Part shown: one piece after another, positions 234-40,995 of the stretch | Numbering within the stretch: position 1 is the stretch's first letter | Layout of the letters: the number at the start of each line of letters is the position of its first letter | Virus record (IMG/VR): IMGVR_UViG_3300003321_000292 | Span: 1-40,995 of that record | Direction: 5' to 3' (one strand) | From: a virus | Length of the DNA: 40,995 bases | Notes under the pieces: model-generated | Database searches by the model: none | Told to the model about the DNA's origin: nothing | The model's input: the letters and a program-made list of their open reading frames with translations, nothing else | Program-made: the position numbers and the translations under genes

Positions 234-374
234 TTAAATTCCAAACTCTTTTTTGGCTCTCTCAAAATCTTCTAAAGTTCTAATAGGCTTTGTTACCGGA
301 TATAACAAATCTTTTAATTGTGGCATTTTGATTTCATTTATTGTGTAATCAATTTTCTTCCGTATTTTCTTCAT
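234..374 (-). CDS. Small protein nested at the end of the portal gene
   Basis: A 46-residue frame whose ATG at 374-372 lies inside the 3' end of the portal-MuF gene, with purine-rich AAGAGACAG just upstream. The protein begins MKKIRKKIDYTINEIK, then has an acidic/basic helical tail ending in TLEDFERAKKEFGI. No family is recognised. Its overlap with the portal gene suggests translational coupling. The body after the portal stop looks coding (balanced residues, no low complexity), but existence rests on position and composition only. A shorter start at 326 would give 30 residues. Confidence 0.45.
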   Translation of the reverse strand: MKKIRKKIDYTINEIKMPQLKDLLYPVTKPIRTLEDFERAKKEFGI

Positions 375-2703
375 CTGTCTCTTGTTCAGGTTCTTCATTG
401 TCTTCCCCTTCAATTACGGACGGTACTAAATCACATCTACAGTTAGGATGATATGGGGGTGCATCATCGCCGCTTGGAAAATCTTCATCAAGTGGTATTA
501 CGCCAGCGTCAGCGTTTTCCTGACATTCATCATCATCGTCATAGTCGAATGATAAAAGGCTTTCTTTGCCTTGTACAACACCAGATTCTTTATAAGCACT
601 TAATGAGCCTTGCATATCAGCACGTTTAATCTCTGTGCGCGCAATGGTCTCGGCCCGTGAAGATGAAAACGCAAAATTGTTTTCAAGCTCATCGGCTAAG
701 TGGTCATTGCTCCAGCCTTCTTCGAGGGCTGTTGTGACTGTGCTACGCAGCATATCGCGGGTGCTATCCGTGATTGCCCATTTCGCGTTGGGATTTTCAA
801 TAAGGTCGCCCTCAGCAGTGTATCGCATACCCACAAGTTCGGCTGCCCTGCGCTTTGCATAGTCATTAGTAACAGCATCAGAGCTAGAAACAATTGTTTT
901 GTCATCGGCTATCCCTCCGAGTTGTAGTAAGGCGAGTTTCGCTCCATCTTCGCCCATGCTTTGCAGCATTTCCTCTACATCACCAACAATAACACTCCAA
1001 CCTTGAAAATCTATATCGTCCAGTATTTTTTGCACATCACTTGGAATATCTGCTTTGTTTATTTTTCCAATGATTTTCGCTGTTATTTTCTTTCCTTCTT
1101 TTTTTAAGAACTTGGAAAGATATTTTTTAAGTTGGAATGTTTTTTTATTTACAAGTGCGCGCTCACGATTAATACGTTTTAAAACACGCTTTTTTTTTTG
1201 GCGTTTTAATAGCTTCTGTTCTTCAGTATTTTTTTCCTCATCAGGTTTAGGTTTCTCTTTTTCTTTTTCGTTTACATTGGAATTATCTTGTAAACTCAAT
1301 TGCGCATTTTGTTGCATTTTGGCATCTTGATAATTTGGGTCTATTAAATCTTTTACAAACTCAACACCCATCGAACCATACACAGCGTTACTCATTCCAA
1401 TTGGGTCAAGTCCTAATTCTGCGCGTACTTCATCAACTGACTTCACACCATTACGAATATACAAATCGTTAATCTGTGATTGCGTGAGAGGGTCTTGGTC
1501 TTGTTCTTCTTTCCATGTAAATTCAACATCGGTATAACCAAAGTATTTGACAATAATTCCATTGATGAAGTTTTTAATCCAATTCATTAATGGCGTTAAA
1601 CCTTCCTCAACTGCTGTCTCTTGTGCGGTTTGTGCAGTTGCACGATTCATCTGTTTGATTAATGCTTGAGGCGAGATGTTAAAGCAATAGCATACGATAC
1701 GCGCGAGCCACTCATCATATTCGTCTTTTAAAGGGTTTTCGCGTGTTTCGTGAATCTGTGCGCCGCCAGCAATAAATTTGGCTTTTCTACGCTCACCCGT
1801 GTTGCCGCTCATGTAAGAGTCCCAAGCAATTTGGAAATCTTTTATCTGGTTTGTGTTCCAACTTTCAGGACAGGTGATAAACGCATCAGGTATATTTCCC
1901 TCGGTATAATATTGCAATTGAGAAAGCTGACGTCGAATTGCAATGTTAACGGTCATGATAATTTGTTCGACAGGTGAATAGCCGTACACTGTATTTGGTC
2001 TTAAGTTCCTGGGTGCATAAATCAATTCATCAAGTGAATAATCAACCGCTGGGATGCCTTTTAAAATCTGCTGATATGCAGGAGATGGGGGCAATGGCGT
2101 ACGACCACTATCGTCAATTAGCCTGCGAATAGTTGCGCCGTCCATAATCTCAAGTGAATATAACTTATTGCCGTTTGTAAATCGTGGGTAAAGAGTTGGC
2201 GCATCAATGACAAGTAAATCCTCCATCAACATTCTTAGCCATAAATCCCAGTTATTTAATTTGTCAGGGAATGCAAAAAACTTGGTGAGTTCGTCAATCT
2301 TTGCATTTTCTACATCCGCTTTTTTGTCTTTAGGAGAGATAATCCATTCAAGTTTTGATACTTGGTCTTTGCGTGTTTCAATGGCACAGCGTAGTAAATC
2401 GTAGTTATTGGCAAGTGCGCGTAATTCATACCAGCTAACGCCTGCAAGTACACGGTTTGAATAGTCAATGTTTTGAGCAACGCTAAAATCATACTGACGC
2501 CCTGCGACTTCTTGGGCTGCTGGCTGCATGGGTTGGCTTGGCCCCATCCATGTATCAGGTGTGACCCCTGAAATCATGTACTTAACGCCCTGCGTCACAC
2601 GTCTTATCAGTCCTTGCTCGATTGGTTTTTTGTTGCCTACTCTGTCAGGCAAATTGCTTTTAGGCGCATCGCGAGTATCGCTGTATATCACTCTATCTGC
2701 CAC
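349..2703 (-). CDS. Portal protein fused to a MuF-type minor head domain
   Basis: 784 residues, GTG start overlapping the end of terminase by 11 bp. Residues about 60-480 look like a phage portal: an early YELRALANNYDLLRCAIETR helix, then RNLRPNTVYGYSPVEQI and a long helical C-terminus. A Lys/Glu-rich linker at about 480-525 leads to a MuF domain with ETIARTE (685-691) and the metal-binding-like HPNCRC (752-757), followed by an acidic tail. The portal forms the dodecameric DNA gate; MuF domains are minor internal head proteins. They are usually two genes, so a single fused chain is notable. Fusion is seen directly in the frame; the domain names come from motif recognition. Confidence 0.88.
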   Translation of the reverse strand: MADRVIYSDTRDAPKSNLPDRVGNKKPIEQGLIRRVTQGVKYMISGVTPDTWMGPSQPMQPAAQEVAGRQYDFSVAQNIDYSNRVLAGVSWYELRALANNYDLLRCAIETRKDQVSKLEWIISPKDKKADVENAKIDELTKFFAFPDKLNNWDLWLRMLMEDLLVIDAPTLYPRFTNGNKLYSLEIMDGATIRRLIDDSGRTPLPPSPAYQQILKGIPAVDYSLDELIYAPRNLRPNTVYGYSPVEQIIMTVNIAIRRQLSQLQYYTEGNIPDAFITCPESWNTNQIKDFQIAWDSYMSGNTGERRKAKFIAGGAQIHETRENPLKDEYDEWLARIVCYCFNISPQALIKQMNRATAQTAQETAVEEGLTPLMNWIKNFINGIIVKYFGYTDVEFTWKEEQDQDPLTQSQINDLYIRNGVKSVDEVRAELGLDPIGMSNAVYGSMGVEFVKDLIDPNYQDAKMQQNAQLSLQDNSNVNEKEKEKPKPDEEKNTEEQKLLKRQKKKRVLKRINRERALVNKKTFQLKKYLSKFLKKEGKKITAKIIGKINKADIPSDVQKILDDIDFQGWSVIVGDVEEMLQSMGEDGAKLALLQLGGIADDKTIVSSSDAVTNDYAKRRAAELVGMRYTAEGDLIENPNAKWAITDSTRDMLRSTVTTALEEGWSNDHLADELENNFAFSSSRAETIARTEIKRADMQGSLSAYKESGVVQGKESLLSFDYDDDDECQENADAGVIPLDEDFPSGDDAPPYHPNCRCDLVPSVIEGEDNEEPEQETDEENTEEN

Positions 2704-4069
2704 TGTGTTGCTCCCTGTTATCTTGCTGCTCTTTCTCTCTGTCTTCCATTAGAGATTTGTAAAAATCAATCATTCCAGTTTCACTTAACAAAGCTAAATG
2801 ATTCAAAGCTTGCGTGAATGCGTCCACTCTATCATCATGCGCGCTATTAGGAAACAGTGCGCATTCTTCTATGAAGTCAAAAACCCAATCACCATTCTTG
2901 GGAAGAAAAACCCTTTTTGCTTCCAATATTCCTGTGACAGCATTTGCCCGTGCAATTTTATCTTTGTCTATTTTTATTGCTCTGATTGGCAATCGTGTAT
3001 CACGCTGTAGTTCTTGTATTAAACTCTGTCCACTTGCTTTATCTTCAATCAAAATCCTATTTGGTTTATATTTATCAGCAAGCGCAATTGCTGTGCTTTT
3101 AAGCTCAGGATATTCCACCTTGTTACACCAGCAATGTAATAAGTAATACCCATCTTTTGCAACACCAACAGTGATACAAACACTATTGTCGCTTTCTTCT
3201 TTTGCTTTAAAAGCGGTGTCCCATGACTGGATAATCTCACTGAAAACTGGCTCTTGTTCGTAATACTGCCAATATTCACGCTTTAAGATTGACCCTTCTT
3301 GTTGAGCATTCCAGTCACCTTCAAGCCATGCACGGACCAACCACGCAGCCCCAGAACCCATTAAACGATTGCGATAATTCGGGTCGTTCTGACACAAAAT
3401 CTTGTTATCTTCGAGACGTGATGGAATGTAAACACGAAAAACTCTTGTGTTCGTATCATAGAATGGTTTTAAAGGCGGAGAGGGTTTGATATATCTGTCT
3501 TTTATCCATGTATGCCCAACACCACCAGGGTTACCCGTTGCAACAAGCTGACAAGGCACACCGTGCGGACTTCTTAATGTTGCTCTTATTTTGTCGATAG
3601 CGTCAGAAGTCGCCCAGTTTCCCAACTCATCAAATACAACAAACGTGTAACTATGCCCTTGATACTTCATCGCATCGTCATCGTTTTCCAAAAAGCGCAT
3701 TTTTAATTTTGCGCCGTTTGGCATCGTCCAAACCTTTTTTGAAGCTTTAAACTCAGCCCCTAATGGAAAAAATATTTCATAGGAGCGATTAATCACTTCA
3801 TCAAGTTCAGGCATTGACCGCCTGAATAATATTCCTTTGGCATTCGCTCCATAACGTCCGCAATGCCCAAGCCATTTGCCAAGGATGCCATCAGTCTTCC
3901 CCCCACCTCGCGCACCACCGAAGAAAATATCTTCAACTGGACACGTCATCAGCAGGGTTTGTGGCCCCGCTTGCGGCTTCCAAATTATTCTTTGTCCAGT
4001 CTTCAAGCGAAGATTCTGCGGGGATAACGGCAACAAATCCTGTGTGTGAGTGTTCGATTGCATCTCCAT
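2693..4069 (-). CDS. terL: Terminase large subunit
   Basis: Packaging motor ATPase and headful or cos nuclease, 458 residues from this start. Visible motifs: WKPQAGPQT near the N-terminus, Walker A GGARGGGKT (residues 51-59), Walker B VVFDE, and nuclease-domain acids in SWDTAF, ILIEDKASGQ and HDDRVDAF. The GPQ segment is normal in this family, so the start must lie upstream of the internal ATG at 3949. ATG 4069, preceded by AGGAAAAG, is preferred. This makes a 137-bp overlap with the terminase small subunit gene in another frame, which is longer than usual. The frame stays open up to 4132. Confidence 0.92.
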   Translation of the reverse strand: MEMQSNTHTQDLLPLSPQNLRLKTGQRIIWKPQAGPQTLLMTCPVEDIFFGGARGGGKTDGILGKWLGHCGRYGANAKGILFRRSMPELDEVINRSYEIFFPLGAEFKASKKVWTMPNGAKLKMRFLENDDDAMKYQGHSYTFVVFDELGNWATSDAIDKIRATLRSPHGVPCQLVATGNPGGVGHTWIKDRYIKPSPPLKPFYDTNTRVFRVYIPSRLEDNKILCQNDPNYRNRLMGSGAAWLVRAWLEGDWNAQQEGSILKREYWQYYEQEPVFSEIIQSWDTAFKAKEESDNSVCITVGVAKDGYYLLHCWCNKVEYPELKSTAIALADKYKPNRILIEDKASGQSLIQELQRDTRLPIRAIKIDKDKIARANAVTGILEAKRVFLPKNGDWVFDFIEECALFPNSAHDDRVDAFTQALNHLALLSETGMIDFYKSLMEDREKEQQDNREQHSGR

Positions 4070-4493
4070 CTTTTCCTGTATGCTCTGCCGTAATTTTATC
4101 GCCGTATTTCTTAGGCAATAATTTGCTGGCAATCCATTTCCTTGTGTCTACTCGAAGCTTTGAACGTTGAATCACGTCGTAGTTTGTTCTTTCATGTCCT
4201 GTTTCATCATCAATGATAGTATCAAGCCGACCATCATCCGCGATATCAATCATCTCATCTATCATAAGTTCGGCTTGAAGCTCTTTAGCGCGCGCGTATT
4301 TGTCGGAAAAAATAGGATTACTGAAAACCCACTCATGAATCGTATCTCTGCAAGGAAAGTCAGGGTTTTCCTTACAAAGATGCGAAAGACCGCGTGTAGA
4401 ATTAGCAATCGCCGTGCAAATTTTATTGGCTAATTCTTCACTATACAGCGTAGGTCTACCCTGTTTTTTTACGGCTTTTGCTTTATCAGGCAT
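3933..4493 (-). CDS. terS: Terminase small subunit
   Basis: 186 residues. Start MPDKAKAVKKQGRPTLYSEE was chosen at ATG 4493, which overlaps the stop of the preceding gene (ATGCCTGA). The N-terminus RPTLYSEELANKIC followed by a helix-turn-helix-like region and RDTIHEWVFSNPIFSDKYARA is typical of phage small terminases that read out short DNA-binding folds. The middle (QRSKLRVDTRKWIASKLLPKKYGDK) also matches this group. It binds the packaging site and recruits the large subunit, encoded immediately downstream. Confidence 0.85.
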   Translation of the reverse strand: MPDKAKAVKKQGRPTLYSEELANKICTAIANSTRGLSHLCKENPDFPCRDTIHEWVFSNPIFSDKYARAKELQAELMIDEMIDIADDGRLDTIIDDETGHERTNYDVIQRSKLRVDTRKWIASKLLPKKYGDKITAEHTGKDGDAIEHSHTGFVAVIPAESSLEDWTKNNLEAASGATNPADDVSS

Positions 4494-8623: not shown

Positions 8624-9457
8624 ATGAAAAAAGTTGCGTTTTGTAATCAGAAAGGCGGCGTCGGAAAATCATCGGGCGCTGTTAATTCGGCTGATGCCTT
8701 ATGTAATGACCAAGTACCCGTATTATTAATAGACCTAGACCCTAACGGCTCATCGACGAGAGTTTTTTATGACCCTAGCAATTACCCTGAGAGGGAAAAC
8801 TTTTATACATTAACGGATGTCTTACAAGACAAACACTTCGACCCAATGCAGGCTATTTATCCGGCTTTCATTGATGGCATTAAACGTAATGACTTATATA
8901 TTATGCCCTCTGACATTTCACTTGCCGTTTTTCAATCAACATTATCAGGAAAGATGCACAAGGAAAAATATCTTAAAAGACAAATTGATAAAATTGAGGA
9001 GAGATTTACAAAAAGAAATTTAATAATTTTAATTGATTTACCATCAACATTATGTGATTTATGTATAAATGGGGCTTATGCTGCTGACCTTCTGGTGATT
9101 CTGACACCTTACGAATCAGACGGATTACATGGTATCAAAGACTTTTTTAATATGGTCTCAGAGGCAAAAGAGTCACAAAGCTTTGATTATCGCTTTTTAA
9201 GAAATAGGCGAGATGAAAGAATGACGATTGCTATAAATTTTATGAAAGACCAATTAACAGACTTTGAGAGCAAATTATTTGACACAATTATCCGGTCTGA
9301 CGCCACGATTAACAATGCTAAGATTCACAATAAAACTGTCTTTGCATACAAACCGGATTGCAACGCGGCACAAGATTATAGAAATTTTTCAAGAGAATTG
9401 AGGGGGATGTTGGGTGAAGAAGAAATCATCTTCGGCAGTAAAAAAAATCTTAAGTAA
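8624..9457 (+). CDS. parA: ParA-type partition ATPase
   Basis: 277 residues, ATG preceded by AAGGAAAG. The deviant Walker A motif NQKGGVGKSS lies at residues 7-16, the switch strand VLLIDLDPNGS follows at about 33-43, and Walker B-like NLIILIDLPSTL at about 126-137. It lacks an N-terminal DNA-binding domain, fitting short type Ib ParA. It would move plasmid copies on the nucleoid together with the small protein that overlaps its 3' end by 44 bp. The upstream repeats suggest autoregulation. Confidence 0.9.
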   Translation: MKKVAFCNQKGGVGKSSGAVNSADALCNDQVPVLLIDLDPNGSSTRVFYDPSNYPERENFYTLTDVLQDKHFDPMQAIYPAFIDGIKRNDLYIMPSDISLAVFQSTLSGKMHKEKYLKRQIDKIEERFTKRNLIILIDLPSTLCDLCINGAYAADLLVILTPYESDGLHGIKDFFNMVSEAKESQSFDYRFLRNRRDERMTIAINFMKDQLTDFESKLFDTIIRSDATINNAKIHNKTVFAYKPDCNAAQDYRNFSRELRGMLGEEEIIFGSKKNLK

Positions 9458-9836: not shown

Positions 9837-9866
9837 TAATCACACACAACCGAGTAAGGATTGCGT

Positions 9867-10823
9867 ATGACTAACGAGAGTTTAAAAGAAAACAACCGCG
9901 CCGACCATAAATTATCTGAGGATAAAGGGGCGTCGCGCATGGAAGATAAAGACTACACAACAGGGATTTACGATATCTCAAATGAGGAATATCACAAGCA
10001 CAAAGGCATAAGCAGAAGTGCGATATCAGAATTAAAAAAATCACCTTTGCATTATTGGGATAAATATATTAACCCTGAGCCAAAAGAGCCAAAAGCATCG
10101 CCAGCTTTTTTATTAGTCGGGAGTGCAGTGCATACGCTTGTGTTAGAACCTGAAAAATTCTTGGAAGAATTTGCCGTCATGGAAAAGGTCGATTTACGAA
10201 CCACCAAAGGCAAAGATTATCTTAAAAGCTTTGAGGAAAATGCTGTCGGCAAAAAAATATTAAGAGAAGAAGATGCAATACTTGCCAAGGCTATTTCAAA
10301 AGCTGCACTTGACAATAAAAGCGTCAGCAAATTATTAAGCGGTGCGCTCTCTATTGAAAAATCTCTCTTTTGGGTGGACGAAGAATCGGGCCTTGTTTGT
10401 AAAGCGCGTCCCGATATTTGGAGCCATACCTATTCGATGCTTTGCGATTTAAAAACAACGAATGACGCATCACCTGAAAACTTTATCTATTCCGTTCACA
10501 GATACAATTATCACATCCAGGCTGCTATGCAGATTGATGCAGTATTTAGAAACACAGGTGAGTTGGTAGAGCATTTCACTATCATTGCAGCCCCAACGGA
10601 TGCACCTCACAAACCTTACGTTTATGAACTCGATGAATTAACTATCGAGCAAGGACGGCGTGAGTATAAAGACGCATTAAAGCTATTAAGAAAATGCTAT
10701 GACAATCAAAAATGGGACTTAGATAGAGAGACTATCACTAAAATTAATATGCCTCCCTATACCCTGAACCAAAATCCTTTTCATACTTTAATGGAGATAT
10801 ACGAATGCAATTCCAACCTGTAA
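9867..10823 (+). CDS. RecE/exonuclease VIII-like PD-(D/E)xK nuclease
   Basis: 318 residues from ATG 9867. After a charged 25-residue N-terminus the chain has YHKHKGISRSAISELKKSPL, VGSAVHTLVLEP, then the nuclease core VCKARPDIW and MLCDLKTTNDASPENF, and the later RYNYHIQAAMQIDAV. RPD and DLK supply the metal-binding Asp and catalytic Lys of the exonuclease VIII group. It would resect linear DNA 5' to 3' and load the annealing protein encoded by the next gene (18-bp overlap). A start at 9939 is also possible. Confidence 0.8.
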   Translation: MTNESLKENNRADHKLSEDKGASRMEDKDYTTGIYDISNEEYHKHKGISRSAISELKKSPLHYWDKYINPEPKEPKASPAFLLVGSAVHTLVLEPEKFLEEFAVMEKVDLRTTKGKDYLKSFEENAVGKKILREEDAILAKAISKAALDNKSVSKLLSGALSIEKSLFWVDEESGLVCKARPDIWSHTYSMLCDLKTTNDASPENFIYSVHRYNYHIQAAMQIDAVFRNTGELVEHFTIIAAPTDAPHKPYVYELDELTIEQGRREYKDALKLLRKCYDNQKWDLDRETITKINMPPYTLNQNPFHTLMEIYECNSNL

Positions 10824-11575
10824 GTACAGTATCAAAAATTGTTAATGTTGAATTAGACACTCAGATTTCTACCGCCAAAAATTACCCCAGAAATCCTGAA
10901 AAATTTCTGGCTGAGGCTATCATGCTTGCCACCATTGACGAAGAAACAGCAGAGTCATGTATTTATTCTTTGCCACGCGGTAGCGATACAGACGGCTCAC
11001 AATCGTTTTTAAAAGGTGAATCTATCAGACTTGCTGAAATTATTGCGAGCTGCTGGGGTAATCTTCATGCTGGCTCACGCGTTATTGATAACGACGGTAA
11101 ATCCATCACGGCTGAAGCGGTTTGCTGGGACTTAGAGAAGAACGTCAAAATCACAAAGCAGGTTAAAAGAAGCATCCTGACACGAGCCGGAAAGACATTC
11201 AGCCAAGATATGCAGGTCGTCACAGGCAACGCCGCACAATCCATCGCCCTTCGTAACGCCATTTTTAGCGTCGTCCCAAAGTCTTTTGTCAAAAAGGTTT
11301 ACACGGCTGCTGTTAATTTTGCCATTGGCGACCAGACAAAAATATCCCAGAAGGTTAAAAACCTATTTGACCGCTTTCAAAAGATGGGCATTCCTAACGA
11401 AAAAATACTGGCTTATTTTAAAAAGGGTGCTATGCAGGAAATCACGCCTGAAGATGTTGAGGAAATGATAGGTATCGGCACAGCTATTCGTGACGGTAAT
11501 TTGAAAATAGATGTCGCGTTTGTAGAAGCCAAAGAGGAGAACAAGCTATCAAGTCTTAACGATAAACTTTCTTAA
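10805..11575 (+). CDS. Putative single-strand annealing recombinase
   Basis: 256 residues, ATG at 10805 overlapping the nuclease gene. Conserved-looking blocks include EKFLAEAIMLATIDEE, KGESIRLAEIIASCWGNLHA and TGNAAQSIALRNAIFSVVPK. I do not see a textbook RecT or Erf signature. Its position directly after a RecE-like nuclease, before SSB, and its size make a phage annealing protein the best guess. It would coat ssDNA and pair complementary strands for recombination-dependent replication or end joining. Confidence 0.55.
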   Translation: MQFQPVSTVSKIVNVELDTQISTAKNYPRNPEKFLAEAIMLATIDEETAESCIYSLPRGSDTDGSQSFLKGESIRLAEIIASCWGNLHAGSRVIDNDGKSITAEAVCWDLEKNVKITKQVKRSILTRAGKTFSQDMQVVTGNAAQSIALRNAIFSVVPKSFVKKVYTAAVNFAIGDQTKISQKVKNLFDRFQKMGIPNEKILAYFKKGAMQEITPEDVEEMIGIGTAIRDGNLKIDVAFVEAKEENKLSSLNDKLS

Positions 11576-11644: not shown

Positions 11645-12076
11645 ATGCAGATGAAACATAAACAAGTTAAGTCTAATACCAACACACCAAAATGTAAACA
11701 GTCAGTAAACATTTTAGGGGTCGATGACAGTCCCATTTGTCAGTTCGCTTTAGAGGACGTTATCAAGACCATTGACAGCAATGCAAAGGTTGTTGGAAGC
11801 GGTAAAGAGGCGGTTAATGAGGTCATACATAGCGGTAAGAGATACCACATTGTTATTACCGATTTAAACATGCCTGAGATGGACGGCTATGAAGTAGCAA
11901 CACAGTTAAGGGCCTATGCTGTCAAAAACAAAATGAGAATATTAATTTATGCACACACGGCCTCTGAGATTGGGATGGTTGAGGATAAATGTGCGAAGGC
12001 TGGCTTTGATGGGGTAGTGATTAAACCTGTGAGTGCAGATGCCATCAGGTCAATCATTGAGGAAAATTTTAAATGA
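11645..12076 (+). CDS. Stand-alone response-regulator receiver domain
   Basis: 143 residues with no output domain. A basic tail of about 22 residues precedes NILGVDDSP (acidic pair Asp27-Asp28), the phosphoacceptor Asp73 in ITDLNMPEMDGYE, Thr105 in YAHTAS and the Lys127-Pro128 pair in VIKPVSAD. All phosphotransfer residues are present. Single receivers act through protein contacts or as phosphate sinks. It is followed by CsrA (15-bp gap), and a soluble histidine kinase is encoded 1.4 kb away on the other strand, so they may form a pair. Its N-terminal codons contain copy 2 of the late-promoter repeat. Confidence 0.85.
   Translation: MQMKHKQVKSNTNTPKCKQSVNILGVDDSPICQFALEDVIKTIDSNAKVVGSGKEAVNEVIHSGKRYHIVITDLNMPEMDGYEVATQLRAYAVKNKMRILIYAHTASEIGMVEDKCAKAGFDGVVIKPVSADAIRSIIEENFK
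11689..11710. repeat. Copy 2 of the 22-bp late-promoter repeat
   Basis: Differs from 162-183 at one base (GTAAACAGTCAGTAAAC instead of GTAAACAGTAAGTAAAC). It lies within the coding region for the basic N-terminal tail of the receiver protein, 45 bp after its start codon, so a bound protein could block transcription of the CsrA operon. It may also be a chance match in AT-rich DNA. Confidence 0.35.
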
Positions 12077-12091
12077 TAGAAGGGATTGAGA

Positions 12092-12397
12092 ATGCTAAAT
12101 TTAACGCGGCGTGTTGGAGAGAACATAAAAGTTTTTAAGAATGATGATTATGAATCTCTGGAGATGACGATTACTATTTTGCAGATAAACGGAAATCAAG
12201 TGAGCGTTGGTATTGATTCAGATAAAATTTACACGTTTTTAAGAGATGAAATCTACCAAAAGGTTTGCAGAGAAAGGGGAATAGAGCCAGTGCAAGATAG
12301 CTATACAAAAGAAGATGTTATCAAGGCTCATTATTTAAAGAAAAGGGCTTGGAGAGACAGGATGGAAAAGGAGAGAGAACAATGCAGCGCGGAGTAA
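12092..12397 (+). CDS. csrA: CsrA-family RNA-binding regulator
   Basis: 101 residues from ATG 12092 with AGGG eight bases upstream. [12 protein letters not shown] matches the start of CsrA, including Leu4, Arg6, Arg7 and Glu10. Later GNQVSVGID and LRDEIYQKV match the core and the RNA-contacting Arg44 region. A short insertion (KNDDYESLE) lengthens the beta1-beta2 region, and a basic C-terminal extension of about 35 residues is unusual. CsrA binds GGA in leaders and blocks or stabilises mRNAs; in Legionella it controls the replicative/transmissive switch. A phage copy could reset host physiology. It sits between the receiver and SSB genes. Confidence 0.88.
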
Positions 12398-13034: not shown

Positions 13035-13211
13035 ATGGATGTACGAGAAATTGTAAATTTCTTAAACGAAAGGATTGAAAGCACGGAAAAGAAACAATCA
13101 GAAGACATTGCAAACCTAAACAGAACCCACGAAAAAATGCTCGAAGGTAAAATACAAGCCTACAATGACGTATTAAATTTTGTGCTTAATAGTCCAAAAA
13201 AACGACACTAA
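13035..13211 (+). CDS. Small coiled-coil protein
   Basis: 58 residues, ATG at 13035. MDVREIVNFLNERIESTEKK followed by QSEDIANLNRTHEKML is strongly helical and polar with heptad-like spacing. A TATAAT hexamer at 12998-13003 could serve as its own -10 box. It ends by overlapping the convergent gene at 13208 by 4 bp. Function unknown. Confidence 0.5.
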   Translation: MDVREIVNFLNERIESTEKKQSEDIANLNRTHEKMLEGKIQAYNDVLNFVLNSPKKRH

Positions 13212-13489
13212 AACATGGTGGGGACATTTCTTGCCTGCGTGTTTTGATACGCAATTTGAGCCTCCCACGAATAAGGGGCCATAACACCAAGCCATGTCGT
13301 TGAATCAATCTGATTTCTCAAAGCATCATTAAAGTTGATGTATTTCGCACACCCAGGAAAGCTGCGCGCAAGGCGCAGCAATTCAATAGGATTAAAAAAG
13401 TCATGAGCTTCCCTGCTCAGGAGTTTTAAAGCGATATCACTATCATTAAATGCCCTTTGTTTTAATTCTCTTTCTCTATGTTCAATCAT
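13208..13489 (-). CDS. Unknown 93-residue protein, last gene of the CDPS/kinase operon
   Basis: MIEHRERELKQRAFNDSDIA, then KLLSREAHDFFNPIELLRLA, a Cys/Gly-containing SFPGCAKYINFNDA and an aromatic C-terminus (TWLGVMAPYSWEAQIAYQ). Soluble and mainly helical, with no catalytic motif that I recognise. It starts 12 bp after the histidine kinase stop, so it is probably co-transcribed with the kinase and the cyclodipeptide-synthase-like gene. Confidence 0.6.
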   Translation of the reverse strand: MIEHRERELKQRAFNDSDIALKLLSREAHDFFNPIELLRLARSFPGCAKYINFNDALRNQIDSTTWLGVMAPYSWEAQIAYQNTQARNVPTMF

Positions 13490-13501: not shown

Positions 13502-14539
13502 TTAAACAGGTAAATAAACATCAAATGTTGAGCCTTTCCCAAGTTCACTTTTAACGCTTATGCTGCCTTGCATATTGCGAAGATGGTTTTTGACAATGCT
13601 TAATCCTAAGCCTGAACCGTTATAGCGTGGTTCTAAATAGCTTGGATTAACTCTCTGAAAATGTTTTTCAAAAATCTTTTCTTGATATTGTTTTTCAATG
13701 CCGATGCCAGTATCAATGAATAATAAATTCATGCCTATACCTTGGCCCTTTTTCTTAAACTTTGCAACGACTGACACTTTTCCTTTTTCAGTAAATTTTA
13801 TTGCATTTGTAATAAGATTTAATGAAATCTGCTCAAAATCAAGTTTACTGCAATAAATTTTCTTACTTGGACACTTAAGCTCGACATCAATTTTTTTATC
13901 TTTCATAATTGGCTCAATCATTTTTATTACACCTTGTAATGATTCTTTGATGTTAAATTCTTCTTTAACTTGATAATTTGAGCTTGAAACAAAAGACACT
14001 ATTTTTTCAAGAAACTGCAAAAGATAATCTGAAGACGTTGAAACCATCCTCAACTTTTCTTTTTTATCAGCATTTTTTTCATCACGCGCAAGTGCTTCAG
14101 TAAGATAACGAATAGCGCAAAAAGGATTTCTTATGTCGTGACTAATACTATTTATGAAATTTCTTTTTGCAATATCGGCTTGTTTTACGTCAGTAATATC
14201 ATGACTAATGATTGATATGCCGACACACTTTCCTTTCTTATCATAAACAGGCTGTTTCACAGACATCAGAAACCGTCCGTTATATTCTTCCTCAACAATT
14301 TTGCGTTTACCGCTTTTCATTACAGCAACACAATCTTTCCAAGCATCCGTTGCTTGCAAACAATCCTTTTCAAGCATTGGAAAATCCGACATAAACTTTT
14401 CGTTTTTGACGATAAAGTTTCCTTTAGTGTCAATGACGTTGTAATAAACGCCCATAAAATCAGCAATACAGTCTATTGCTTCGCCAGCAGAAGCCTTAAT
14501 TATTGACTCCCACCCCTTTTGGTCTGTGCCCTTGTACAT
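13502..14539 (-). CDS. Soluble PAS-domain histidine kinase
   Basis: 345 residues without membrane segments. A PAS-like sensor occupies about residues 20-115 (FMGVYYNVIDTKGNFIVKN ... VYDKKGKCVGISIISHDIT). The H box is NSISHDIRNPF with His134, the N box NLITNAIKF with Asn245, then DTGIGI (Asp276) and GSGLGLSIV. All catalytic boxes are intact, so it should autophosphorylate in the cytosol. Its ATG, preceded by GGAGA, lies 44 bp inside the end of the cyclodipeptide-synthase-like gene, indicating coupled translation. The only receiver in the window is at 11645-12076. A sensor kinase on a phage genome is rare. Confidence 0.92.
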   Translation of the reverse strand: MYKGTDQKGWESIIKASAGEAIDCIADFMGVYYNVIDTKGNFIVKNEKFMSDFPMLEKDCLQATDAWKDCVAVMKSGKRKIVEEEYNGRFLMSVKQPVYDKKGKCVGISIISHDITDVKQADIAKRNFINSISHDIRNPFCAIRYLTEALARDEKNADKKEKLRMVSTSSDYLLQFLEKIVSFVSSSNYQVKEEFNIKESLQGVIKMIEPIMKDKKIDVELKCPSKKIYCSKLDFEQISLNLITNAIKFTEKGKVSVVAKFKKKGQGIGMNLLFIDTGIGIEKQYQEKIFEKHFQRVNPSYLEPRYNGSGLGLSIVKNHLRNMQGSISVKSELGKGSTFDVYLPV

Positions 14540-15470
14540 AATTGTCTCTCCTTTCTATCTCCGTTGACGATTCACCACAAACCAACGTCGGAACCATGCT
14601 CATGCAAGGCTGCATTGATTTAAGGTATTGACTAAAAAACTGCTCCCTTTGCTCAATTTTTGTTATGCCGTGTTTTCCCATGAGTAAAGCTAACTTACTG
14701 CATCCGACCATCAATTCCTCTGGGTAGCAATAAGATGGTTGAACGCGTGAAACTGATACGTATGATAAATAACTGTTGACTGTGCTTGTATTTGAATTTT
14801 GCTGTGTAATTTGCTGCTGCTGTAATTGCATGGAAGGATTAAACTCATCAGATTTTTTTCGTTTATCGAGTCTATAAGGAAAAAATAATAAATCGTTATT
14901 ATATTTTTGAATGAGGTGCATACAGGCAGAATTTAATTTGTCGGCAGGATAAGTTAGATATCCTGTTTTATAGATAAAATACGCGCATTCTTCGAGTAGA
15001 TATTTTTCAACATTTGTAATGTCGCCTTTATCAATATGGCTTTTTGCAACGTTTTGAACTTTGGCTTTGAAGCCCGAATCTTTTTCATAATGTTCTTTTA
15101 TTTTAATTTGTGCTTGTTGAAATTCTGGTTCAGCAAGAATATCTTTCCAGCGCACTATTTTGTAAGGAACTTTTAATTGCTTTAATATTTCTGCATTATC
15201 TCTGAGCCACTCGTCACCAGCGGCTTGTGCTTCTTCTTCTGTCGAATAATGCCGATGCAAATAATCTGCAACCATTATTTCAACATCTGTTATCTTATGC
15301 GTGTGTGAATTAATTAGATTTACAAACGATATTAAATCATTACCGGTTTGTTTCTCGTTACCCATACTAACGCCGAAAATCATTTTTATTTGTGATTTTA
15401 TGTTTCCGTAACCCTTAACAAATTTAGCTGTCTTTATCTCATCTTGTCCCACTTCTTCAGTGTCATTCAT
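14496..15470 (-). CDS. tRNA-dependent cyclodipeptide synthase-like protein
   Basis: 324 residues; ATG 15470 with AGGGG upstream. The first 190 residues follow the cyclodipeptide synthase pattern: a strand ending FGVSMGN with Ser35 where the family has its nucleophile (AlbC Ser37), ITDVEIMVADYLHRHY, EEEAQAAGDEWLRDN, YKIVRWKDILAEPEF, HYEKDSGFKAKVQ, then KYLLEE with Tyr157 and Glu161 (AlbC Tyr178 and Glu182), and a Tyr174-Pro175 pair as in the XYP subfamily. Known members use two aminoacyl-tRNAs to make a cyclic dipeptide. The C-terminal 130 residues (Gln-rich, then KLALLMGKHGITKIEQREQF) are extra. No tailoring enzyme gene adjoins it; a histidine kinase gene overlaps it. Confidence 0.68.
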   Translation of the reverse strand: MNDTEEVGQDEIKTAKFVKGYGNIKSQIKMIFGVSMGNEKQTGNDLISFVNLINSHTHKITDVEIMVADYLHRHYSTEEEAQAAGDEWLRDNAEILKQLKVPYKIVRWKDILAEPEFQQAQIKIKEHYEKDSGFKAKVQNVAKSHIDKGDITNVEKYLLEECAYFIYKTGYLTYPADKLNSACMHLIQKYNNDLLFFPYRLDKRKKSDEFNPSMQLQQQQITQQNSNTSTVNSYLSYVSVSRVQPSYCYPEELMVGCSKLALLMGKHGITKIEQREQFFSQYLKSMQPCMSMVPTLVCGESSTEIERRDNYVQGHRPKGVGVNN

Positions 15471-15778: not shown

Positions 15779-15826
15779 TTTACATGTCTTTTATTGTATT
15801 GTACAATACAGACAACAAACAATCAA
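15779..15826. promoter_or_regulatory. Overlapping divergent promoters with a palindromic operator
   Basis: Plus strand: TTTACA (15779-15784), 17 bp, TACAAT (15802-15807), start near 15814, just before the tRNA-like RNA. Minus strand: TTGATT (15826-15821), 17 bp, TACAAT (15803-15798), start near 15791, for the ribbon-helix-helix gene. The perfect palindrome TGTATTGTACAATACA (15795-15810) covers both -10 boxes. One dimeric repressor bound here would switch off both directions; the neighbouring ribbon-helix-helix protein is the natural candidate. Confidence 0.65.
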
Positions 15827-19562: not shown

Positions 19563-20246
19563 ATGATTGAAACACGCCAAAAATATATTGCTTACTATAG
19601 AGTAAGTACAGATAAGCAAGGAGCGCGTGGTCTTGGAATGGAAAGTCAGAAAATAATGGTAGAAGATTATGTCAAAAGCGTTAATGGGGAAATAATTAAT
19701 ACACATTATGAAGTTATCAGCGGAAAAAGAAATGATAGAAAAGGCATTCTCTTAGCACTTCAAGAATGCAAAAAAACAGGTGCTATTCTCGCAGTTGCAA
19801 AGTTGGATAGACTTGCAAGAGATGTGTTATTTATTGCACAGCTTGTTAAATCAAAGATTAAGTTTGTACCTGTAGAAAGCCCACATATTGATAAAAATTT
19901 TATACACATGCGCGCTGTGTTTTCAGAAATGGAAACAGATTTTATATCAGCACGCACAAAAGCCGCATTAAATGTATTAAAATCTCGTGGCGTCAAATTA
20001 GGCAGTCCAAAAATTAAACAATTAAATGAAATTCTTAAGGAAAATTCTCGTAAATTTATCGAGCAAATATCGCCTATAATTACAGACCTACAATTAAATG
20101 GCTATAATTCTCAAAGGAAGTTAGCAAAAGAACTGACTCGACTTAAAATTAAAACACCGAAAGGACGTGACACATGGGGAAAAACACAAATCACGCGCGT
20201 ATTAAAGGGCTTAAAAACGGAGATATCATCTCACTTGGTGAGTTAG
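19563..20246 (+). CDS. Small serine recombinase (resolvase/invertase)
   Basis: 227 residues. YYRVSTDKQ places the catalytic Ser at residue 15, and AKLDRLARD, together with an arm helix near MRAVFSEMETDFISARTKAA, completes the catalytic domain (residues 1-150). The remainder has helix-turn-helix-like QRKLAKELTRLKIKTPKGRD and GKTQITRVLKGLK. The size is that of resolvases, not of large serine integrases. It may resolve plasmid multimers, invert a segment, or mobilise the accessory module. Confidence 0.9.
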   Translation: MIETRQKYIAYYRVSTDKQGARGLGMESQKIMVEDYVKSVNGEIINTHYEVISGKRNDRKGILLALQECKKTGAILAVAKLDRLARDVLFIAQLVKSKIKFVPVESPHIDKNFIHMRAVFSEMETDFISARTKAALNVLKSRGVKLGSPKIKQLNEILKENSRKFIEQISPIITDLQLNGYNSQRKLAKELTRLKIKTPKGRDTWGKTQITRVLKGLKTEISSHLVS

Positions 20247-39713: not shown

Positions 39714-40995
39714 CTATTTACTAATAAACTGCTCGTAAGGCACAGGTTTCTCGTGCGCTTTTTTCAATAAATACAAAGGGTTTTCATTATTTTTCTCATC
39801 TTCTTCTGAAGATGTCTTCGGATTAGAAAAATTAATATCTTGACCTTTTTCGACAGACTTCAATGCGCCTTTTGGTGGCTTCGGTAAAGCCTCAAGTTCA
39901 TCAACTCTTTTTTGCAAATCTTGTTTCTCCTGTTCCAATTTGGAGATACTTTTTTGCAAATCATCAAGCTTTGATATGTCTGCGGCTAAATCAGTCTTGG
40001 CACTATCCGCGCCGCCGCAACTAGCACCAAGTTCCATGCTGAGGTCGTGCATTTTTTGAATGCGGTCATTGTCGCTCCTGCTATTTCTCGCTCCTGCTTT
40101 TTCGATATCTTCTGCATTTTCAGCGTAGGCAACTGGTACAACCTCGTTTGATTCTGTCGTGTCGGCTGTCAATTCTTTTGTTTCTTCAACGACCATATCT
40201 TTTAAAATGGACGATAATGTGATGACAGCTTTTTTAAGCTTGGCTGGAAGTGTGGAATTATCGCCCTCGACGATGGCTTCAAATTCTGCACTTGCCTTAA
40301 TGCAATTAACTTGTTCGATAAGAGATGCCAACTGCGCAACGTCCCACATGCCCTTTTGGACATCTTGGGATTGCTCTGATTTCTCTTTGTCATCCTTTTC
40401 AGCAGATGGCGGCTCACCGCCTATCTTGTCTTTCCATGCCGCGAGTATTTTGTTTTTAATAGTCTGAATGTCTTTGGCATCGTATTTGTCAGCGTTCTTC
40501 GGTTTGTTGATGTAATTCCAGGCGGCGCGAATATGTTCTTCAGTATCAATCGGATATTTCTTGTTTTTTTCATCAGCGAATTTTACATCGCCGTATTTGT
40601 CCTCACCCTCTTTAGGGTCAGCATCATCACGAGCAGCAACTTTTTCAATTTCTTTTTCTTCTGGTTTATCTTCTGTAGGTTCTTTCTCTATACCTTCTGC
40701 TTTGTACAACTCAATAACGCATTCGGGGTTTGCTGGTCTATCAACAAGGCTAATTTCACTGATGCGTAATTTGTTGATGGTGTTATCCACCTTAACCAAA
40801 CTTTTACCGCCGATTGAAAATCCTTTGTAAACTTCTTCTTTGACTTTTTTCCACGCATTATCATCAACAATCTTTGCCCCTATATACCAGCCTTTTTCAT
40901 CCACATCGACTGACTTTGTAATGCCAACAGCGGATGGCTGGTGCATTTCTCGGATGTTGGAAAATTTAAGATATTCTGGCAAAGCTTCGACTAGT
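39714..40995 (-). CDS. Prohead protease with scaffold-like tail (C-terminal part; starts at 116-1)
   Basis: Continuation of the frame that begins at 116. Protease landmarks: REMHQPSAVG (His) and YKGFSIGG (Ser), and ISLVDRPANPECVIELYK, typical of XkdF/HK97-type proteases. After about residue 150 the chain has KYPIDTEEHIRAAWNYIN, found in the same phage family, followed by an acidic/helical stretch with a coiled coil (KLDDLQKSISKLEQEKQDLQ), probably a scaffold. Protease and scaffold are fused. The full protein is 465 residues. The next gene is major capsid. Confidence 0.9.
   Translation of the reverse strand, partial: LVEALPEYLKFSNIREMHQPSAVGITKSVDVDEKGWYIGAKIVDDNAWKKVKEEVYKGFSIGGKSLVKVDNTINKLRISEISLVDRPANPECVIELYKAEGIEKEPTEDKPEEKEIEKVAARDDADPKEGEDKYGDVKFADEKNKKYPIDTEEHIRAAWNYINKPKNADKYDAKDIQTIKNKILAAWKDKIGGEPPSAEKDDKEKSEQSQDVQKGMWDVAQLASLIEQVNCIKASAEFEAIVEGDNSTLPAKLKKAVITLSSILKDMVVEETKELTADTTESNEVVPVAYAENAEDIEKAGARNSRSDNDRIQKMHDLSMELGASCGGADSAKTDLAADISKLDDLQKSISKLEQEKQDLQKRVDELEALPKPPKGALKSVEKGQDINFSNPKTSSEEDEKNNENPLYLLKKAHEKPVPYEQFISK

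Follow-up and report, generated by a model that had tools for sequence, protein, structure and literature searches.

In the peptide quorum-sensing systems ComQXP and agr, the synthesis gene co-varies with the sensor half, and the output part of the kinase is conserved, and in arbitrium a signalling system is carried by a phage. Synthase-receptor systems of the LuxI/LuxR type are found on prophages of Phaeobacter (PMC13345283). For the cyclodipeptide synthases (CDPSs), the parts of Aravind et al. 2010 (PMC2922099) that bear on the question give a 'Hiskin+rec' gene among the abbreviations of an operon figure and propose a role in intracellular life, and the corresponding parts of Skinnider et al. 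2018 (PMC5767969) note frequent PAS domains in the neighbourhood of CDPS genes and suggest quorum sensing. Those passages describe no dedicated pairing, no specificity unit of PAS and synthase, no prophage location and no phage example. In our searches of the literature on CDPSs together with histidine kinases, PAS domains, phages or prophages, neither such a paired system nor co-variation of PAS and CDPS came up, nor did an example from a phage, and no receptor was met for what a dedicated CDPS makes. The products of the CDPS of Rickettsiella grylli are cyclo(Phe-Phe) (cFF) and cyclo(Phe-Leu) (cFL) (PMC7566563, PMC12945691), and its crystal structure is available (PDB accession code: 5MLP).

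The window (the whole stretch of DNA that was analysed, an IMG/VR virus record of 40,995 bp) is a tailed-phage genome that carries a CDPS-like gene and, overlapping it, the gene of a PAS-containing sensor histidine kinase. The coordinates are collected in Table 1. Like ComQXP and agr, this cassette looks like a linked two-component signalling unit in which the synthase and the sensor half co-vary; the receptor of those systems is in the membrane, whereas here a predicted tRNA-derived cyclic dipeptide would meet the PAS domain of a mostly soluble kinase. With the Phaeobacter LuxI/LuxR systems and arbitrium it shares a phage-carried synthase and receptor, and modules that are exchanged and diversified on mobile elements, but the enzyme and the chemistry are different and the receptor is a kinase rather than a transcription factor. 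For the phage cassette, a control of lysis-lysogeny is hypothetical. The R. grylli CDPS has in common with the phage protein the fold, the catalytic Ser/Tyr/Glu/Tyr-Pro residues, a long C-terminal part and a PAS kinase next to it. The two are about 26-37% identical, depending on the stretch compared; the phage protein has fewer residues ahead of the helix with the catalytic Tyr, and at the position of AlbC Asn40 (the X residue) it has Asn38 where the R. grylli enzyme has Gln.

Table 1. Features of the phage cassette and its surroundings (positions in the window)
Feature	Positions	Strand	Remarks
Portal/Mu-F fusion and terminase large subunit	349..4132	-	mark the record as a tailed phage
ParA-like partition ATPase	8624..9457	+	
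Exonuclease VIII-like early gene	9861-10823	+	homologues adjoin chromosomal CDPS-kinase pairs
phrog_3657 early gene	10805-11575	+	homologues adjoin chromosomal CDPS-kinase pairs
Stand-alone response-regulator receiver domain, 143 aa	11645..12076	+	PF00072 2.3e-17
CsrA-like post-transcriptional regulator	12086..12397	+	PF02599 2e-11; directly after receiver gene
93-aa ORF	13208..13489	-	directly after kinase; no family match (Pfam)
PAS-HisKA-HATPase_c sensor histidine kinase, 345 aa	13502..14539	-	Pfam HATPase_c 1.9e-21, HisKA 6.9e-10
Kinase phospho-acceptor His134	14138-14140	-	
PAS domain of kinase, residues about 24-116	14192..14470	-	proposed receptor for CDPS product; co-varies with CDPS
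CDPS-like synthase, 324 aa	14496..15470	-	ATG start, intact; catalytic domain about residues 20-205, C-terminal extension about 206-324
CDPS Tyr174-Pro175 codons	14946-14951	-	
CDPS Glu161 codon	14988-14990	-	
CDPS Tyr157 codon	15000-15002	-	
CDPS Ser35 codon	15366-15368	-	
Ribbon-helix-helix (CopG-like) DNA-binding protein, 67 aa	15553..15756	-	first in group; PF01402 E 1.8e-4, above cut-off
16-bp perfect palindrome TGTATTGTACAATACA	15795..15810	.	upstream of ribbon-helix-helix gene; single copy in window

A purine-rich stretch resembling a Shine-Dalgarno sequence, AAAAGGGGCAA, lies 5' of the ATG of the CDPS gene. In a phmmer search against the PDB sequences, its product matches the CDPSs of R. 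grylli (5MLP, 8e-10), Fluoribacter (5OCD, 4e-9) and Nocardia (5e-9). The NCBIfam model for tRNA-dependent cyclodipeptide synthase (TIGR04539) gives an E-value of 6e-4 and 19.4 bits, under its cut-off of 45 bits, and the Pfam model PF16715, by which the initial annotation had proposed to check the assignment, gives no match. PF16715 is also blank in two genomes holding CDPS genes that are clearly related to 5MLP. Because the model misses such relatives, it is blind to this CDPS clade and its absence was rejected as evidence against a CDPS; the scores below cut-off are a limit of the tools and not a biological defining feature.

The second check proposed, that of the structure, came out in favour of the CDPS family. 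A single-sequence AF2 model (mean pLDDT 44) was thrown out, and a model built from five sequences (the ORF and four chromosomal relatives) is usable over residues 30-190, with average pLDDT of 68-89 for the blocks in 31-190. With this model, Foldseek ranks CDPSs before all other folds (Nocardia 9iaj, E 9.4e-12), and VIA-align superimposes it on 9i5m with a Z of 20.5 and an rmsd of 2.6 over 186 residues and on the R. grylli 5MLP with a Z of 17.0. The predicted model thus has the class-Ic aaRS-like Rossmann fold of the CDPSs, with neither an alternative fold nor a loss of Ser35. The nucleophile Ser, the Tyr/Glu pair and the Tyr-Pro pair are where they had been placed, in the motifs G33-V-S35-M-G-N38, Y157-L-L-E-E161 and Y174-P175. 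Ser35, Tyr157, Glu161 and Tyr174 align with AlbC Ser37, Tyr178, Glu182 and Tyr202, the residues that are almost strictly conserved in active CDPSs (PMC7566563). Pro175 follows the cyclisation Tyr174, which makes the protein XYP rather than NYH, with Asn38 at the X position. Sequence and model together confirm the product of 14496-15470 as a homologue of the XYP-type CDPSs, for which cyclodipeptide formation is predicted. The protein is about 32-37% identical to its nearest relatives and is without residues before the Tyr157 helix, so its activity is not certain.

The C-terminal extension is present as had been described, with about 120 residues after a domain end near residue 205, but it is not distinctive. 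Chromosomal relatives commonly have a length of 260-320 aa, and the extension is partly conserved in the closest of them and is therefore not peculiar to the phage; an extra C-terminal domain is known in a Legionellaceae group of CDPSs (Gondry et al. 2018, PMC5816076).

What the initial annotation left out is the overlapping PAS kinase, on which our view of the function turns, the CDPS-kinase pairing across the order of R. grylli and the chromosomal pairs located in prophages. In the phage, the kinase gene overlaps the CDPS gene by 44 nt and starts inside it, and the strong Shine-Dalgarno of the kinase (AAAGGAGAG) lies within the CDPS gene. The kinase carries the HisKA H-box (SHDIRNP) and the N, G1 and G2 boxes of HATPase_c (NLITNAIKF, DTGIGI and GSGLGL). 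A minus-strand group of four, made up of the ribbon-helix-helix protein, the CDPS, the kinase and the 93-aa ORF, sits between plus-strand early genes, and the palindrome is a candidate operator. A unique promoter was rejected, its counts being equal to those in shuffles.

The stand-alone receiver domain, on the opposite strand and 1.4 kb from the cassette, is a possible output partner of the kinase. It is not specially close to the receivers adjoining chromosomal CDPSs, and its placement as a displaced member of a receiver-CDPS-kinase triad was rejected; because its best matches are hybrid-kinase receivers and not triad receivers, the link to the triad is unproven. The receiver and the CsrA-like gene, both 1-2 kb off, are candidate outputs of the kinase. 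In Legionella, the host CsrA is a central regulator.

Of the proposal that the window is a phage-plasmid, the phage half stands. Besides the portal/Mu-F and terminase genes it encodes an Rcc01698-like (gene-transfer-agent type) tail protein, other tail genes and head genes, and there are a CI-like repressor, ParA, exonuclease VIII, SSB, CsrA and a serine recombinase (19563-20246). The plasmid half is suggested only, by ParA and by the lack of a detected integrase among the subset of window proteins searched. A permuted or circular genome is suggested by the contig ends, which divide the structural module into a part with the portal (349-2703) and a part with a protease-like protein (39714-40982). 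In a search for the host, the portal gene has no match in 16 genomes of the R. grylli order or in 369 of the class. Among the genes of the window, none could be recognised as an exporter.

Does the pairing of synthase and kinase exist outside the phage? CDPS genes are present in 13 of the 16 genomes searched of the gammaproteobacterial order that contains R. grylli, with up to nine loci per genome, and a kinase gene lies directly downstream on the same strand in 37 of the 38 CDPS loci of that order (the 38 include the Endohaliclona plasmid and some near-identical loci from sister genomes). These genomes have 3-29 HATPase_c genes each, which is few, and therefore chance cannot explain the pairing. 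In a class-wide sample, 24 of 369 genomes have a CDPS match and a kinase is in the same place at 15 of the 24 new loci. A stand-alone receiver gene lies directly upstream of several chromosomal pairs, and two Coxiellaceae-like genomes have two tandem cassettes each. One paired locus covers 5MLP without mismatch, which puts R. grylli in the order; since the R. grylli enzyme makes cFF and cFL, the adjacent kinase is predicted to sense them. In all these loci the synthase and the sensor are genetically linked, as they are in a quorum-sensing system. The cassettes appear to be greatly expanded in the order, with some decayed.

Two of the carriers deserve description. A genome of 1.9 Mb (G015; L040, L044, L045, L064-L068) has nine loci with a CDPS, and its HATPase_c genes number at least 29. 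The Endohaliclona renieramycin plasmid (L006, MK748464), the only plasmid on which a CDPS relative was found, has a CDPS homologue (5OCD-like, 2e-52) and a double-PAS membrane kinase, annotated as hypothetical, and this pair may regulate the renieramycin pathway of the sponge symbiont.

The two halves of the kinase relate differently to the CDPS. Distances were compared over 27 non-identical CDPS-kinase pairs with 2000 permutations. The CDPS distance correlates with the PAS distance (r 0.775, partial 0.769 with the kinase effect removed, reached in 0 of 2000 permutations) and not with that of the kinase core (partial r -0.003). Along the kinase, the correlation with the CDPS is 0.65-0.8 across the PAS and falls to about 0.1 past residue 115, the PAS/HisKA boundary. 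Nearest neighbours agree for CDPS and PAS in 15 of the 27 pairs and for CDPS and kinase in 2; resemblance to paralogues of the same genome is seen for the kinase cores and is absent for CDPS and PAS. Between the two tandem R. grylli cassettes, identity is 17% in the CDPS, 25% in the PAS and 96% in the kinase, and for two cassettes from different genomes the values are 69%, 82% and 34%. In the phage, too, the loci with the closest CDPS relatives also supply the closest PAS relatives, while the kinase core is nearest to other loci. After dereplication to 14 pairs the CDPS-PAS correlation is weaker (r 0.29, 42 of 2000), and the rank correlation is weak when only distant pairs are taken, so that shared subfamilies and recent swaps are the main basis of the co-variation. 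Physical linkage and recombination breakpoints at the PAS/HisKA junction could partly contribute to it. With the fold and active-site residues of a CDPS, the conservation of the pairing, the co-inheritance of PAS and CDPS against an unlinked kinase core and the several cassettes located in prophages, all computational, we give about a two-in-three probability to the whole explanation as a signalling cassette, in which the synthase and the PAS are the signal-specificity part of a cyclodipeptide-sensing two-component system that is here carried by a phage.

A different and, in our judgement, unlikely explanation is that the cyclodipeptide is an effector, inhibiting competitors or the eukaryotic host cell or modulating metabolism, and that the kinase only regulates its production through self-feedback. 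Bioactivity is indeed common among CDPS products, the idea of host manipulation by intracellular bacteria was put forward by Aravind et al. 2010 (PMC2922099), an MFS exporter is present in some cassettes, and Skinnider et al. 2018 (PMC5767969) report MFS efflux as common near CDPSs. An effector alone, however, leaves unexplained that the synthase and the PAS move jointly across paralogous cassettes and that up to nine divergent cassettes are kept in one 1.9-Mb genome, and most cassettes are without adjoining tailoring enzymes. Tailoring enzymes are absent from the window as well, as the initial annotation said; it had guessed at a product used directly as a signal or an inhibitor, and the co-variation favours the signal over the inhibitor.

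The replacement of a synthase bears on what is sensed. One genome (G008) has two homologous prophage cassettes with regulators 77% and 69%, MFS 84% and kinase core 64% identical. One has a CDPS and the other an A-PCP-FAD (NRPS-like) enzyme at the CDPS position, and their PAS domains are 38% identical. An unrelated small-molecule enzyme in the CDPS slot, together with an altered PAS, points to the product of the enzyme as the thing that is sensed. The A-PCP-FAD enzyme (L097:7818-14422; G008:C1 about 237,800-244,400) is monooxygenase-like, has 1125 aa and lies between the MFS exporter and the PAS kinase, and its cassette is possibly a second signal chemistry. In G009 and at G008:C1 about 412,000-426,000, there are MFS genes that share 60-73% identity with the cassette exporter and are about 15 kb or less from kinases; no CDPS was found near them, and these loci perhaps hold further synthase types.

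One chromosomal locus with homologues of the early genes belongs to a podovirus-like prophage, with head, tail, virion and terminase-like genes. This prophage is unrelated to the structural genes of the window, so different phages carry the cassette. Contiguous genomes have seven prophage marker loci, of which five are no more than 15 kb from a CDPS, against a random mean of 0.65 (P about 1e-4), and some CDPS loci are away from prophage markers. The prophages also bear on whether the phage acquired a host CDPS-kinase pair as passive cargo, with no role for the phage. Like cargo (moron) genes, the cassette runs against the early genes on either side of it, and no second viral copy was found in the INPHARED phages or, by short peptide patterns (an insensitive method, for which absence is weak evidence), in IMG/VR. 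Passive cargo nevertheless seems improbable to us: the CDPS and kinase genes are both intact, their overlap is of the translation-coupled kind, and relatives of the cassette are met again in unrelated (podovirus-like) prophages, where the structural module borders on the early one.

Highly improbable is a CDPS-like protein that is no enzyme and, as a sensor of aminoacyl-tRNA, contacts the PAS to report the state of translation or amino acids, for although such contact would also produce co-variation and the family has several divergent members, nearly every member that covers them retains the nucleophile Ser and the Glu, which tRNA binding alone does not need, the protein of R. grylli is an active synthase (PMC7566563) and one cassette has the unrelated A-PCP-FAD enzyme at the CDPS position.

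For the signalling cassette, the following mechanism is proposed. The phage CDPS would catalyse the joining of two amino acids borne on aminoacyl-tRNAs to a cyclic dipeptide, and this product would exit the cell or build up and then bind the PAS of the overlapping kinase. The binding would alter phosphotransfer to a receiver, possibly the one at 11645-12076. The synthase and the PAS would be an interchangeable specificity unit and the kinase core a generic output. The cassette is one of the group expanded in the R. grylli order, which travels on phages and prophages, and that of the phage would most likely report the density of cells with the phage or related elements. A broader reading, which we put forward tentatively, is that of a phage-borne communication, where a CDPS autoinducer is read by its own PAS kinase, phages pass exchangeable cassettes of this kind among intracellular gammaproteobacteria, and the number of carriers of the same cassette determines what phage or host decides.

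The logic of the cassette and its carriage by a phage appear to be new, while PAS domains near CDPSs and the idea of quorum sensing have been known since 2018. The role of CDPSs in obligate intracellular bacteria is a question that has stood since 2010, and the PAS-CDPS co-variation yields specific synthase-sensor pairs for known chemistry, such as cFF and cFL of R. grylli with the adjacent kinase. If the explanation is true, it would provide a new chemical language for quorum sensing and phage communication, and a natural series of matched synthase-sensor pairs. It looks like a signalling system that is common to phages and their intracellular host bacteria.
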